From a bacterium SCSIO 12741 (lineage in GTDB: Bacteria > Bacteroidota > Bacteroidia > Flavobacteriales_G > Salibacteraceae): 64,000 bases of DNA. Positions 32,671 to 54,011 of this stretch are shown here, in pieces. Every line of letters begins with the position of its first letter. The first letter of the stretch is position 1. Where the stretch lies: positions 3,100,594 to 3,164,593 of the forward strand of contig CP073749.1 of assembly GCA_024398055.1 (NCBI GenBank), given 5' to 3'. The notes below the pieces were generated by a model. It was not told where the DNA came from and ran no database searches. It worked only from the letters and a program-made list of their open reading frames with translations. A program made the translations under genes and the position numbers.

Positions 32671-34065
32671 TTAGCATCCGTAACTGTGCACAACCCGGAT
32701 GTACTTATGCTCTCGGATGTCGCCTTGGATTCGGGTTACCTTAAGAATCGAGTAGGGAATCTGGTAGTAACAGGGTTTCTCCTTGTAGACAAAGGTTGAG
32801 GTATTCATTCCTCCTTCGTCGCTATAGTGAACAAAGGTGTCTCTCAGGTTTTTCTGTTCCTTGAGTGCAAGGCTAAAGGGGCCGTGATCTCTGCCCTTGT
32901 ACGGAATGCAATTGATGTAAGGAATAACCCACACGCCTGGTAAGCTATCTTTCATAAAAGCATAGTCAGAGAACCCTTCCCATTTTACCCGGTTTTTCTC
33001 CCAGGCATAGTATTCCTTAGTTGATGGGTAGTCTCCAGGAATGTATTGATACTGCTCAATAAGAGAATGACGAACCAGTGCTCTAAATTCAAATCGGTCA
33101 TTCGGATCGTTCGATTCAGCCCACAGGCGGCGGGAGGTAATGTACCAGCCCACATCTTCCCACAGCTCAACCGTGTCTTTAAATGTGTAAGGCGCTTTTT
33201 CGAATTTTCCTTCGAGTTTCACCGTAAATGTTCCAAAATCCATAACGGTTCTGTCACTTGTGGCCTCGGGGCCCCATCGGTCGTCTAAGGACAAGGTATC
33301 CTGTTGAAAGAGGCTTGCGGTATAGTCCAGTAGCTTTGGCCCGCCTGGTTCGCCGTGGCCAGGAACCACGATTTCGGCTTCCGGAAATTCCTTTTTCACC
33401 CATTTAATGGTGTTTGACCAAGTATCGAGATTGGCATCGCCGAGATAGCCTTTTGAAGCTTCATCCGATTTTACCAAACAGCCGCCAAATAGAACTTTCT
33501 GAGAGGGAACCCAGCCCACCAAATTGTCTATGGAATGTCCTTCACCAGGAAAGCGAATTTCAACGGAATCTCCTCCTATGACTAAAAAGTGTTGTTTCCC
33601 GATTCCGAGTTGAGGTGGAGTAGCGCTATCCTTTTCGGCCAGTGCCAGGCATTTTACATGTCCGTATGACGGAATGCCTGCTTGATGGAAAACGTCTAAA
33701 CTTCCCAAACAGTCTTCATGGTGATGCGTAGCGACTACGTGTTTAATTTGAGCCTTCCGGGCAGTCTCAACCCACCTAATTAGTTGAACGGCAGCTGAAT
33801 CATCCAAAGGCGTATCAAAAACAAGGGCTTCTTCCTCATGGATGTAGATCAGGCCATTACAAGGAAAGGGACCTATATTCTCCAGGTCGATGTACGAGGT
33901 ATGCAACCAGCAGTTTTCCGATAAAGGCTCAATGATGAGATAATCGCTTTGGAAAGAATTGGGTAAAGGTTCTGGCAGAACCGGTGCGGATGCCTCAGGT
34001 TCGGAGTTGGAACAGGATGCAAATAACAAAAGGCTCGCAACGAGCGCAATAAAAGGGTACTTCAT
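32671..34065 (-). CDS. Subclass B1-type metallo-beta-lactamase-fold lipoprotein with C-terminal extension
   Basis: 464 aa from the ATG at 34065, which gives a lipobox LLLFASC (Cys18); an upstream TTG start would spoil it. Residues 40-250 match B1 enzymes: Zn1 ligands His114, His116 (ATHHHEDCLGS) and His177 (GEGHSIDN); Zn2 ligands Asp118, Cys196 (FGGCLVKS) and His237 (VVPGHGEPG). The B1 Lys (K199) and the GDAN Asn are also kept. Beta-lactam hydrolysis is therefore plausible, though PGHG replaces the usual PSHS. B1 enzymes normally end near 250 residues; here about 200 more follow (WYITSRRLWAES, YSDEGGMN, ending VVHSYGC) that I do not recognise. Outer-membrane anchoring recalls NDM-type enzymes. 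Confidence 0.82.
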   Translation of the reverse strand: MKYPFIALVASLLLFASCSNSEPEASAPVLPEPLPNSFQSDYLIIEPLSENCWLHTSYIDLENIGPFPCNGLIYIHEEEALVFDTPLDDSAAVQLIRWVETARKAQIKHVVATHHHEDCLGSLDVFHQAGIPSYGHVKCLALAEKDSATPPQLGIGKQHFLVIGGDSVEIRFPGEGHSIDNLVGWVPSQKVLFGGCLVKSDEASKGYLGDANLDTWSNTIKWVKKEFPEAEIVVPGHGEPGGPKLLDYTASLFQQDTLSLDDRWGPEATSDRTVMDFGTFTVKLEGKFEKAPYTFKDTVELWEDVGWYITSRRLWAESNDPNDRFEFRALVRHSLIEQYQYIPGDYPSTKEYYAWEKNRVKWEGFSDYAFMKDSLPGVWVIPYINCIPYKGRDHGPFSLALKEQKNLRDTFVHYSDEGGMNTSTFVYKEKPCYYQIPYSILKVTRIQGDIREHKYIRVVHSYGC

Positions 34066-35261: not shown

Positions 35262-37082
35262 CTAAAGAGCGGACAGCACTTCCTGCTGATCGTATTTTTC
35301 GGCCAATTCCCGCAACTGATCTTTTGAAATTTGGGAATAGTTTTCTGGCCTTTTGTTCGGTATATCGTCAAAGTTGTCAATCGAGTTGTTCAGGTTGTCG
35401 ATGAGCTTGAGCGCCACTTTATTTCCTTTGTCAAATTCACCAATTCGATAGTAGTTGGCGATTAAAGGGATTTGATAAACATCGTATGGCATAGACGCAT
35501 CAGGCAATACGGCCAGAGATAGATCCAATATCTCCAAAGCTTTATCATCTTGCTCTGCAGCGATTAGTTCGCTAGAAAGCCGGATGAAGTGATAGCGGTA
35601 ATTCATACCCATCATTTTTTCGTTAATTCCAAAATCGGTTTCCCAGTTCCAATCAAATTTTTCGGTGACGTTGTTGTACATCACATCCAGATCAACCGCA
35701 CCGGTTTGTTTATCGTCGATGTCTGCTTTAGAATGACTCAGACGGTAGGCCATGCCTTCCATTTTCAAGTAGTCGTCGAGGCCGAAGAAGCTTTTCGAAT
35801 TATTCGTCACTCCAAAGTAGATAGGACGGTTCTGATTGCCTTGAGCCAATAGATCTAAGAGTATCAAATGGTTTCTCAAGAAATAGCGCTGGTCCACTTC
35901 CCAGTTTATTTTGCCTTCTGGGGTATTCAGATAAAGCTGCTTTGTAGGAAGGTAGGCGTATTTAAAACTTCCTTCTCCTATGGTATGACTATCGTCGCGA
36001 ATAAAGGCCAGGGCTTCGTCAGCGCTCATAGGTTCGTCGGATTCGCTCTTTAACATCACGACCTGACGCTTAGTCCCTTCCAATTCTTCTTTCTTCAGAT
36101 TAAGAGCAAGACCGGGGGCATCCATCACTCCTCGTCGCAAATGCTCTATATAGCGGTTGGTGTTCAAAAGACTCAAGTTGGCCACCATTACATCGGTACG
36201 AATACCATACTGAGCTTGAACGTAGAGTAGAGGGTAGGTGTCGTTGTCTCCGTTGGTGAGAAGGATGGCGTTGGGCGCACAGGAGTTGAGGTAGTTTTTG
36301 GCCATGGAAATGTAGAAGTCTGAATACAGTCCTGATTTAATTTCCTTCTTAGCCTCTTCTTCATTTTGATAGATACTTAAATCGAGGTAGGCCGTTAACC
36401 GTTCATTAGAAGCCTTCACTCCAATAGGGCCAACAATGGTTTTAAAATCTGGATTCTTTTGGGCCAATATTTCAAAATGCTCCACCGCTTTGTGTTGGTA
36501 TTTGCGGTATTCTGCCAGTTGCTCAGGAGAGAGGCTGTTGGGGCCATCCTTTAGTTTAAACTGCTTTTCTGGAATGGCCATTCCCGTGTTGCTGTTGAGT
36601 AAGTTGCTGGCATAGGAAGAATAGGCTCTTCCCAAGGCATAACGGGTGGTGTCTTGAATGGTAGTGAGGTTTCCGTAATGCAGTATCATATCCATGTCCC
36701 AGCCCGGGTAGCCGTAAAATGGGCAGATGGAGTAGTAACGATTCCCCCAGGAGGCTAAGGATTGCTGTAGGGCTTTTTCGTTCTCAGATTCATCTTCCAC
36801 TTTGGGCAGTTTAAGTTTTTGAAACTTGCCTGATTTTCGACTCCAAAAAAGGAATTCATCCACCACCTGAGATTGATTGGAGTGATCCAGAATGGCTACT
36901 TGCCAGCCCGTTGGTCTTTTTTCAAATCGAGCTGCAGAATGTTCCGGGTACTCCTTGATGGAATATTTGCTGTAGAATTTTTCTGCTACCAGTTGGTATT
37001 CGGGATAGTTCTCCGGGGCGGTTTTTTGTCCGGTCAATAGTAGGGGAGAGAACAGGGCGAGAATAATCGAAAGTCTTATCAT
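35262..37082 (-). CDS. Exported protein equivalent to the C-terminal domain of DUF2723 proteins
   Basis: 606 aa with a signal peptide (SIILALFSPLLLTGQ). The body matches the soluble C-terminal part of the large Bacteroidota DUF2723 membrane proteins (protein O-mannosyltransferase-like): YLNSCAPNAILLTNGDNDTYPL, IRTDVMVANLSLLNTNRYI, NRPIYFGVTNNSKSFFGLDDYL, LDVMYNNVTEKFDW and a TPR-like end (DDKALEILDLSLAVLP, IANYYRIGEFDKG). The usual N-terminal multi-pass membrane half is absent and replaced by a signal peptide and about 200 residues of unknown type. It is therefore a periplasmic or secreted stand-alone module. Role unknown. Confidence 0.75.
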   Translation of the reverse strand: MIRLSIILALFSPLLLTGQKTAPENYPEYQLVAEKFYSKYSIKEYPEHSAARFEKRPTGWQVAILDHSNQSQVVDEFLFWSRKSGKFQKLKLPKVEDESENEKALQQSLASWGNRYYSICPFYGYPGWDMDMILHYGNLTTIQDTTRYALGRAYSSYASNLLNSNTGMAIPEKQFKLKDGPNSLSPEQLAEYRKYQHKAVEHFEILAQKNPDFKTIVGPIGVKASNERLTAYLDLSIYQNEEEAKKEIKSGLYSDFYISMAKNYLNSCAPNAILLTNGDNDTYPLLYVQAQYGIRTDVMVANLSLLNTNRYIEHLRRGVMDAPGLALNLKKEELEGTKRQVVMLKSESDEPMSADEALAFIRDDSHTIGEGSFKYAYLPTKQLYLNTPEGKINWEVDQRYFLRNHLILLDLLAQGNQNRPIYFGVTNNSKSFFGLDDYLKMEGMAYRLSHSKADIDDKQTGAVDLDVMYNNVTEKFDWNWETDFGINEKMMGMNYRYHFIRLSSELIAAEQDDKALEILDLSLAVLPDASMPYDVYQIPLIANYYRIGEFDKGNKVALKLIDNLNNSIDNFDDIPNKRPENYSQISKDQLRELAEKYDQQEVLSAL

Positions 37083-38255: not shown

Positions 38256-38993
38256 CTAATTTCGAGGTGATGACGTCAATTGAACCAGTGAAAACAGGTG
38301 TACGAATATGGCAGAAGGCATAAAGAATCCAGGAAGCAATAGATACGGAAAGGTCGCAAATTCGCTGGAAATCATGGATTGTTCTTCGCCCCAAACAGAT
38401 GGGAAGTAAAACGAAGTGACAAAGGTGAATGCTGCATTTAAAACCACGGCAATCCCAGCGATGTTCCATAGAATTAATAGAGGGCGGGAAATCCATTTTT
38501 TGTGGACCAAAAGGGCCACGATTGGAGCACTTATACCGATCAGGATGTCCATATTGTATCCTTCAAAGGTTACTACTATGGGGAGGACGCCTTCCAGAAA
38601 CATGCCATAGAAAACCACCTCAATGAATATTCGGAAGGACTGGTAGCCTACCGCATGATGAATGGGCAAAGCATGAAGGGCAGGATGCCTTTTGTACTTC
38701 CAAAGAAAAACTCCCGAGGCGATAAACAAGGGCAGTATTATGAGCAAGGGGAAACGGGGAGGTAATTCGAGGTTGTTTAGGAATCCTGAGGCGCTAAGTA
38801 ATCCAATGTAAATAAGCCACATAGCAAGGACTCCGAGGAATCGCAGAATGCGTTTTCTTTTTTCGATTCCGTCATATCCTACATTGTCGAAGGCGAGCAA
38901 CGCGTTTTTAACAATAAGCCAGAGCAGGAATACAAACAATCCGTAAAAGGCGAGTTCGAGGAAGTCGTGTCGAGAGATAAATGAAAGTATCAT
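38256..38993 (-). CDS. Integral membrane protein, unknown function
   Basis: 245 aa with about seven predicted membrane helices (LAFYGLFVFLLWLIV, FLGVLAMWLIYIGLL, FPLLIILPLFIASGVFLW, FRIFIEVVFYGMFLEGVL, ILIGISAPIVALLV, LLILWNIAGIAVVLNAAFTFV, a C-terminal helix). No family recognised. It lies 13 bp after the MarR gene and is therefore a likely target of MarR control. Confidence 0.6.
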   Translation of the reverse strand: MILSFISRHDFLELAFYGLFVFLLWLIVKNALLAFDNVGYDGIEKRKRILRFLGVLAMWLIYIGLLSASGFLNNLELPPRFPLLIILPLFIASGVFLWKYKRHPALHALPIHHAVGYQSFRIFIEVVFYGMFLEGVLPIVVTFEGYNMDILIGISAPIVALLVHKKWISRPLLILWNIAGIAVVLNAAFTFVTSFYFPSVWGEEQSMISSEFATFPYLLLPGFFMPSAIFVHLFSLVQLTSSPRN

Positions 38994-39006: not shown

Positions 39007-39435
39007 CTAGGGGGTCAACTTTTTTAGAACCAAATCCAGCGCACTTTCTCCATCTTCTTGCAATATGGCTCGTATTTCTGTCATGGCTGCCTGCCAGTGT
39101 GGAATGATCTCTTCCACCAGGGCCTTTCCGGTTTCGGTGAGTTCAAAGGTTTGATCGCTCTGCTTGGCCACCCAATTATGGTCGAGCAATCGCTGCAGGT
39201 TGCGATTCACGGTCGACTTTTCCATGATCAACACGTCCGCCAGCTTCTTCTGGTTGACTTCTGGGGCTTTGTGAATGACAAAGAGAAGGGTGAGTTGGCT
39301 ATTGCTTAAACCAAAGGGCTGAAGATGCTTTCGAAACAAGTTGGCCACGATTCTGTTGCACTTCCTCATTTTGTTGGAAAGACAAATCGTTGGATCCAAA
39401 TCAGCCAACAAGGGGTAGTCTTCTTGCTTTTCCAT
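39007..39435 (-). CDS. MarR family transcriptional regulator
   Basis: 142 aa winged-helix regulator. Core: NRIVANLFRKHLQPFGLSNSQLTLLFVIHKAPEVNQKKLADVLIMEKSTVNRNLQRLLDHNWVAKQ (split here by helix for reading; recognition helix around KSTVNRNLQRL), then the wing FELTETGKALVEE and dimerisation helices. First gene of a minus-strand unit with a membrane protein and an HD hydrolase. A perfect 16-bp palindrome covers its own -33 region, which strongly suggests autorepression. The -7 box ends 4 bp before the ATG, so the message would be leaderless or nearly so. Ligand unknown. Confidence 0.88.
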   Translation of the reverse strand: MEKQEDYPLLADLDPTICLSNKMRKCNRIVANLFRKHLQPFGLSNSQLTLLFVIHKAPEVNQKKLADVLIMEKSTVNRNLQRLLDHNWVAKQSDQTFELTETGKALVEEIIPHWQAAMTEIRAILQEDGESALDLVLKKLTP

Positions 39436-52787: not shown

Positions 52788-54011
52788 ATGCCACATATTT
52801 CGAATAAAGGTCAGAACATGCCGGCTTCACCGATCAGGAAGTTGGTTCCCTTCGCCGAAGCAGCGAAGTCAGCTGGAAAAACAGTTTATCACCTGAACAT
52901 CGGTCAGCCCGATATTGAAACTCCTGAAAATGTCAGGAAAAAAATGCGGGAAACCGAATTGAAGGTAGTGGAGTATTCCCACTCAGCTGGGTTTGAATCC
53001 TACCGTAAAGGATTGGCAAACTATTACAACAACTTGGGTATCGGCATCGATCACAACCAGGTTATCGTAACAACAGGGGGCTCTGAAGCCCTTCTATTTG
53101 GTTTTATGAGTTGTTTTGACCCAGGTGATGAGGTCATTATTCCAGAACCTTTCTACGCCAACTACAACGGTTTTTCCACCGGTGCAGGGGTAAAGGTTGT
53201 TCCTATTACGGCGGATATAGAAAGTGGATTTGCTCTTCCTCCGATCAGCGAATTCGAAAAGAAAATTACTCCACGCACCAAGGGTATTTTGATTTGTAAC
53301 CCTGGAAACCCAACGGGTTATCTATACTCGAAAGAAGAGTTGGAGCATTTGAGAAAAATTGTTCTTGAGCATGACTTGTTCTTGTTTGCCGATGAGGTAT
53401 ACCGTGAATTCTGCTATGATGGTGCCGAGCACCATTCCATCATGAATTTGGAAGGGTTAGAGCAGAACGCGATAATGGTAGACTCTGTTTCTAAGCGCTA
53501 CAGCATGTGTGGAGCTCGAGTGGGAGCTTTGGTTACCCGCAATCAAGAGGTATTGGATACCGTGATGAAGTTTGCTCAGGCTCGGCTAAGTCCTCCAACC
53601 TACGGACAGGTGGCCAGTGAAGAAGCATTGAATACTCCTCAGTCCTATTTTGACGATGTGATTAGCGAATACGTGGAGCGTCGTAATGTGATGGTAAACG
53701 CTTTGAATGAAATTCCAGGAGTTCGCTGTCCAATGCCCAAAGGCGCCTTCTACGCCATTGCTGAATTGCCAGTGGATGATGTAGATCGTTTTTGTCAGTG
53801 GATTTTGGAGAGCTTCGATCACAACGGGCAAACGGTAATGATGGCTCCAGCCACCGGTTTTTACTCGGATCCGGAACCTGGACGCCAGCAAGTTCGATTG
53901 GCCTACGTTTTGGAAAAAGATCACTTGGTGAATGCAGTTGAAACTTTGGCCGCAGCTCTTCAAGTTTATCCAGGGCGCACTGAAAAAAAAATGGCTGAAG
54001 CTGAGCTATAA
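52788..54011 (+). CDS. Pyridoxal-phosphate-dependent aminotransferase, class I/II
   Basis: 407 aa fold-type I aminotransferase. NIGQPDIETP N-terminal motif, TTGGSEALLFGF phosphate-binding, NPGNPTGYLYS, ADEVYREF (Asp202, Tyr205), the Schiff-base Lys in DSVSKRYSMCGARVG (Lys236) and the carboxylate Arg in GRQQVRLAY (Arg370). Probably uses aspartate or an aromatic or branched amino acid with 2-oxoglutarate; the exact substrate cannot be read. Cytoplasmic. A secreted thioredoxin-fold-like gene follows 42 bp later. Confidence 0.93.
   Translation: MPHISNKGQNMPASPIRKLVPFAEAAKSAGKTVYHLNIGQPDIETPENVRKKMRETELKVVEYSHSAGFESYRKGLANYYNNLGIGIDHNQVIVTTGGSEALLFGFMSCFDPGDEVIIPEPFYANYNGFSTGAGVKVVPITADIESGFALPPISEFEKKITPRTKGILICNPGNPTGYLYSKEELEHLRKIVLEHDLFLFADEVYREFCYDGAEHHSIMNLEGLEQNAIMVDSVSKRYSMCGARVGALVTRNQEVLDTVMKFAQARLSPPTYGQVASEEALNTPQSYFDDVISEYVERRNVMVNALNEIPGVRCPMPKGAFYAIAELPVDDVDRFCQWILESFDHNGQTVMMAPATGFYSDPEPGRQQVRLAYVLEKDHLVNAVETLAAALQVYPGRTEKKMAEAEL

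Follow-up and report, generated by a model that had tools for sequence, protein, structure and literature searches.

A subclass B1 metallo-beta-lactamase joined to a C-terminal domain of a small, apparently exported protein family in a member of the Salibacteraceae

The locus raises the question of what a subclass B1 metallo-beta-lactamase does with a second, C-terminal domain of about 200 residues in the same protein. The gene lies in a 64,000-nucleotide stretch, analysed as a whole and called the window below (positions 3,100,594-3,164,593 of the 5.10-Mb single-contig genome of bacterium SCSIO 12741, G000). It occupies positions 32671-34065 of the window on the minus strand and encodes 464 amino acids in an uninterrupted frame, from the ATG at 34065 to the stop codon at 32671-32673. 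A chance open frame was rejected, as both halves of the protein have homologues in the correct frame. The N-terminal segment (34012-34065, minus strand) is a predicted signal peptide, read by eye, with the lipobox-like end ...LFASC18, from which it is plausible that the protein is a lipid-anchored lipoprotein; the Phe at position -3 is not the commonest residue there. Close to the gene there are 4 promoter-like sites against a mean of 10.8 in shuffled sequence, a count that carries no information. Rfam gave no matches within the 64-kb window, and PADLOC none for the protein (P0001).

Residues 36-255 (33301-33960, minus strand) comprise a complete subclass B1 domain, as judged from the model match and the alignment. 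Against the NCBIfam model of subclass B1 (NF033088) the protein scores 242.6 bits (E 3.5e-72, cut-off 200). In the genome scan the window genome has a single B1 above the cut-off, at 245.1 bits, and seven of the ten selected genomes have B1 above it. The model also matched in 13 of 14 control genomes but rose above the cut-off in only one, so it is the cut-off that decides the B1 calls. The best match of the domain among PDB sequences is to solved B1 enzymes (E 1.5e-66); identity with the CHM family was rejected (245.3 bits against a cut-off of 475). All six zinc ligands (H114, H116, D118, H177, C196 and H237, corresponding to BBL H116, H118, D120, H196, C221 and H263) align with those of NDM-1, VIM-2 and IMP-1, and also with MYO-1, VMB-1 and DIM-1, and the B1 lysine is retained as K199 (BBL 224); on both points a first-pass annotation, made from the sequence alone, had been right. 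The NCBIfam cut-off and the ligands likewise speak for its assignment to B1, and the tree agrees with it. In this tree of 18 rows, all of them B1 and without a B2 or B3 outgroup, the window enzyme groups with Bacteroidota enzymes (13 rows including MYO-1 and its own, 100/99), apart from NDM, VIM, IMP, DIM and VMB. The phylogeny proposed as a check speaks for the Bacteroidota group within B1, and gives the enzyme no clear position inside that group. Compared with the window enzyme, the twelve further Bacteroidota rows show 38.5-45.7% identity and the remaining five rows 29.5-36.6%.

The domain ends naturally with LLDYTASLFQQ255, and the remaining residues, ~256-464 (32674-33300, minus strand), comprise a C-terminal domain whose family has no name and consists of proteins that appear to be exported and end in Tyr-Gly-Cys. 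In the 81 families covered by section 4 of a survey (PMC5637372), B1 enzymes are compact single-domain proteins of 236-278 amino acids, whereas the window protein keeps an extra domain; according to Table 3 of the same survey MYO-1 has 266 and ECV-1 258 amino acids, and the window protein is ~210 residues longer. Matches to B1 were found in 13 of 60 genomes searched (own genome included). Two were left out, G009 (E 1.5e-4), which reads as another MBL-fold protein, and G028, which is cut by the contig end, leaving eleven B1 genes readable to their end: nine stop within a few residues past the domain, and two, the window gene and that of G003, continue. The NCBIfam B1 long type (NF041269) likewise extends beyond its B1 domain, but the window protein scores only 181.3 bits against a cut-off of 350, and the match covers positions 13-221 of the 334-position model, so that its end at 221 lends no support to relatedness of the tails. 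Among 2719 matching plasmid records none covers 80% of the window protein; the tail itself gave no match on plasmids at E≤0.1, nor in viral contigs, where few peptide patterns were used and sensitivity was low. Searches of open-licence PMC papers turned up no B1 enzyme described with a tail of this kind. The enzyme class of the window protein is a known one, its architecture was found neither in print nor in the family libraries searched, and the statement that the extra domain lies outside known B1 enzymes stands within these searches.

The same annotation had called the C-terminal domain unknown. This is correct in that it has no database family match: the window tail gave no Pfam match at E≤10 and no NCBIfam match, its best row against PDB sequences has E 0.2 (none credible), and searches of Pfam, NCBIfam and PDB with six members returned nothing credible. 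It is incorrect in that relatives exist, five other distinct members having been found. In a search of 297 related genomes with the window tail, the sole clear relative besides the window gene itself is a 258-aa free-standing protein of G202 (L015, E 3.1e-8) with an N-terminal signal-like segment. The two compare at E 5.6e-14 in two-sequence BLASTP, with a Smith-Waterman Z of 22.2 against 1000 shuffles. With the two-row profile, one genome of 395, G001, gave a match to a 289-aa protein (L044, E 0.0047); this match, although it had little weight of its own and was as weak as others that were set aside, was retained because it ran to the Tyr-Gly-Cys end of the protein, and later comparisons confirmed it. 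In hhalign the tail and this SH3 protein compare with 95.7% probability (E 1e-8 for a single comparison). With the three-row profile two more proteins of like build were found, in G014 (E 8.5e-42) and G011 (E 1.9e-41). When named genomes were scanned with a profile of the three SH3 proteins, three loci came out, one in Kordia sp. (L054) and two in genomes already found; as this profile used two patterns only, the distribution given here is a minimum. L048 and L055 are identical proteins, as are L047 and L056 (G011, G014; Flavobacteriales bacterium UBA6049, uncultured Flavobacteriales bacterium isolate SRR3580189_bin.58).

There are, in consequence, six distinct members: the window protein, L015, L044, L047/L056, L048/L055 and L054. 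The five others share with the window protein the C-terminal domain and its Tyr-Gly-Cys end, but have no metallo-beta-lactamase domain; one is free-standing (L015) and four carry an SH3 domain (SH3_3 in all four, above the Pfam cut-off in three). L015 matches the three SH3 proteins directly (E 1.8e-11, 1.8e-8 and 1.4e-7), whereas the window tail gives only weak values with the same three (E 0.001 for each, with shuffle Z of 5.8, 6.1 and 3.9), so the link to the SH3 proteins runs through L015. The window domain is 19-28% identical to the other members. Tyr-Gly-Cys stands at the very C-terminus of all six (window 32671-32682, including the stop codon). The six-member alignment, which is uncertain in its middle part, has 17 columns invariant across all members, and among these there is neither a His nor a group of residues that looks catalytic, in line with a module that is not an enzyme. 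The L015 domain has only two Cys residues (225 and 258), both shared with the window protein as Cys432 (of the KxC motif) and Cys464 (the last residue), which suggests a 432-464 disulfide in the window protein, closing the domain to the invariant last Cys. The window tail also contains Cys386, and the SH3-type members have a further Cys pair near the domain start. The tail marks a small domain family that has no model in Pfam or NCBIfam.

The tail domain is rare and patchy among the genomes searched. By our own reading, with the own genome included and with genome sets that overlap, the window tail found members in 2 of 297 related genomes and the three-row profile in 5 of these 297 (seven rows at E≤0.02, two of them set aside). 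The two-row profile found them in 1 of 395 genomes of the phylum and in 3 of 395 of the class, and the five-row profile in 3 of 395 of the class; in the family of G202 the count is 1 of 24 genomes. The window genome has no second copy at E≤10, and peptide patterns from P0001 gave no confirmed relative in the named genomes. Noise was judged from the rows, which were short, weak and often had internal stops, and open frames were inspected for L037, L043 and L035. Set aside in this way were 32 of the 34 rows of the window-tail search of 297 genomes, five of the six phylum-set genomes matching the two-row profile, G176, G230 and G752 of the class set with the same profile, and G089 and G229 with the three-row profile. 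We attribute to chance the matches to bromodomain chains (window tail, E 0.2; profile, 4py6_A at E 0.014), DUF5081 and LysM2_NFP (one of six members each, E 0.02 and 0.074), HmuY for L055 (E 0.042, 14.4 bits, cut-off 27), and PADLOC REase_II for L054 (E 8e-4, 16.7 bits).

The reading that we tentatively prefer, with a confidence that comes close to even, is that of an envelope lipoprotein in which a Bacteroidota-type (B1-3-like) beta-lactamase is combined with a complete domain of an exported family, the tail placing or holding the enzyme in the envelope. The join would lie at the natural C-terminus of a complete B1 enzyme, which continues there into a complete domain of that small family; the product would be exported and lipid-anchored and, like MYO-1 and ECV-1, would use two zinc ions to hydrolyse beta-lactams. 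The tail, closed by the putative disulfide, would have no catalytic role of its own and would position or retain the enzyme in the cell envelope, perhaps at the wall. SH3_3 domains are wall-binding, and wall binding of the window tail is here guilt by association, since only the relatives have SH3_3 and the window protein gave no SH3 match at E≤1.

The joining may instead be a matter of chance, with two exported proteins brought into one frame and a tail that folds alone and adds nothing to the enzyme. The fusion of B1 with the Tyr-Gly-Cys domain was seen in only one genome among those searched, and the nine B1 genes out of eleven that stop just past their domain point the same way, as does G001, where B1 and the SH3-plus-domain protein are encoded by two genes ~0.88 Mb apart. 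G011, G014 and G202 have the tail domain and no B1 above the cut-off. We nevertheless regard a chance fusion as somewhat unlikely: the junction coincides with the point where a B1 domain naturally ends, and the tail, despite its low identity to its relatives, retains an open frame and an intact conserved end, and so has not simply decayed.

The second B1 gene that continues past its domain encodes a 435-aa protein in G003 (L004, positions 1426-2733, equal to L079 7010-8317), with B1 followed by an alpha/beta-hydrolase-like domain. Like the window enzyme, it is a B1 of the same bacterial family with ~200 residues added at the natural end, but the extension is a different one: it is Abhydrolase_2-like (20.2 bits, below the cut-off of 23), carries a GTSKGG motif and adjoins namZ. 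The hydrolase-like domain is present in 3 of 35 genomes of the bacterial family (G003, the window genome G000, and G001). In G000 it is a separate protein with a signal-like start and 69% identity to that of G003; for G001 the identity is 35%. The next gene on the same strand after the hydrolase, both in G000 (L084) and in G003 (end at L079 9669), is namZ, an exo-beta-N-acetylmuramidase by Pfam; in G001 no namZ lookalike was seen among the neighbouring ORFs listed. NamZ acts in wall turnover. On the sequence evidence, B1 enzymes in this bacterial family are joined to two different partners, the hydrolase partner being tied by its neighbourhood to wall turnover in two genomes. Two such fusions in one family, one of them next to a wall-turnover gene, bear on the role of B1 enzymes in Bacteroidota outside the clinic.

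Whether the B1 domain still acts on beta-lactams was considered from its active-site residues. The B1 asparagine, which had been taken as kept, is absent: the alignment places Tyr207 at BBL 233 (the position of Asn220 in NDM-1), and the Asn of ...GDAN... occupies another position. Asn233 is common in B1 but not defining, and Tyr or Phe is found at BBL 233 in 6 of 18 aligned B1 enzymes, the window enzyme and MYO-1 included. In passages of one paper (PMC7443720), Cys69, Cys121 and Gly262 are reported for MYO-1 and ECV-1, Tyr233 for MYO-1 and SHD-1, and carbapenemase activity for all three, so the loss of Asn233 is not disqualifying, as the Tyr233 enzymes MYO-1 and SHD-1 are active. The window enzyme has the whole MYO-1 set, namely Cys121, Lys224, Tyr233, Gly262 and Cys69 (the last read off a printed alignment); Cys69, Cys121, Lys224 and Gly262 are common to MYO-1 and ECV-1, and Tyr233 is shared with MYO-1. 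MYO-1 has the same B1 domain, with 39.4% identity to the window enzyme over 218 positions. NDM-1 resembles the window enzyme in its zinc ligands, Lys224 and lipoprotein-type signal, but is only 29.5% identical, has Asn220 where the window enzyme has Tyr, and lacks the added tail. NDM-1 is a lipidated enzyme. The match to the active-site residues of MYO-1 favours a beta-lactamase over a B1-derived enzyme of other function.

A B1 domain turned to another substrate, such as a cell-wall or secondary-metabolite compound recognised by the tail, would not be a resistance enzyme, and several features are consistent with such a change. BBL 117 (residue 115, window 33721-33723), between the first two ligands, is His (HHHED), while the 17 other aligned B1 enzymes have Phe (15), Ala (1) or Trp (1), and the end branch of the window enzyme (1.35) exceeds those of the twelve other Bacteroidota rows. 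The second fusion in the same family stands directly before namZ. By our own count from Table 3 of PMC5637372, three of the eight group B1-3 enzymes tested there show no imipenem hydrolysis, so activity of the window enzyme is not a given. The retention of all the zinc ligands, Lys224 and the MYO-1-like residues, together with the score above the NCBIfam B1 cut-off, argues against a changed substrate, which we judge unlikely. A broader proposal, that a beta-lactamase or B1-derived wall enzyme is placed at the wall by a new wall-associated domain and represents one of at least two B1-to-wall fusions in the family (the other being the B1-hydrolase protein beside namZ), appears distinctly unlikely.

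As for the fold of the tail, the suggested structure prediction was of little help: AlphaFold2 with the window tail and three relatives as the alignment reached pLDDT 37.7, too poor to show a fold. The Kordia protein L054 with three further rows gave pLDDT 53.9, with block means of 56-85 at residues 161-280. Foldseek returned one row below E 0.001, with a TM-score of 0.15, which is not meaningful. With VIA-align the L054 model matched best, at Z 7.1, the chains 9ll2_A (CrdA, 2.9 Å over 95) and 5t7a_A (BhCBM56, 2.9 Å over 89), followed by arrestins, VPS26 and other beta-sandwich proteins; a Z of 7.1 is in the tool's range for what may be just a common arrangement, and is unspecific. The tail domain is probably beta-rich, as far as the model goes. 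That the tail is itself an enzyme, inhibitor or chaperone domain of a bifunctional protein, for which there is a precedent in the class C-class D beta-lactamase LRA-13 (PMC5967600) and some room in that no fold was assigned, is very unlikely given that the six members have no conserved catalytic-looking residue set and the tail no credible family or solved-structure match.

The surroundings of the gene were also compared. Eight neighbouring window proteins were scanned, with no match to a regulator or beta-lactam gene family, which counts against the preferred reading. No conserved neighbourhood was found: in the stretches taken from G001, G003, G013 and G017 nothing corresponding to the flanking genes lies next to the B1 gene. 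The gene at window 35262-37082 (minus strand) encodes a 606-aa protein with no Pfam match, whose residues ~259-574 match ~1000-1130-aa proteins of most relatives; a match is found in 39 of 41 genomes, near-full-length, besides its own, only in G002 and G013, and the full-length relatives there have other neighbours. For a 529-aa neighbour the relatives are only partial and weak, the best one besides itself reaching E 5.1e-14. The window genes at 38256-38993 and 39007-39435 (minus strand) are resembled by two side-by-side ORFs of G017 (L081 3173-4323), which lie ~1.9 kb downstream of the G017 B1 gene, while the window pair lies ~4.2 kb upstream of its B1 gene; the pair is a possible remnant of a shared neighbourhood. 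In G013 an ORF 24% identical to that at window 52788-54011 lies ~1.4 kb from the B1 gene. A plasmid of Hymenobacter sp. HDW8 contains a B1-like stretch (L064 1393-2156) under three short ORFs annotated as hypothetical.
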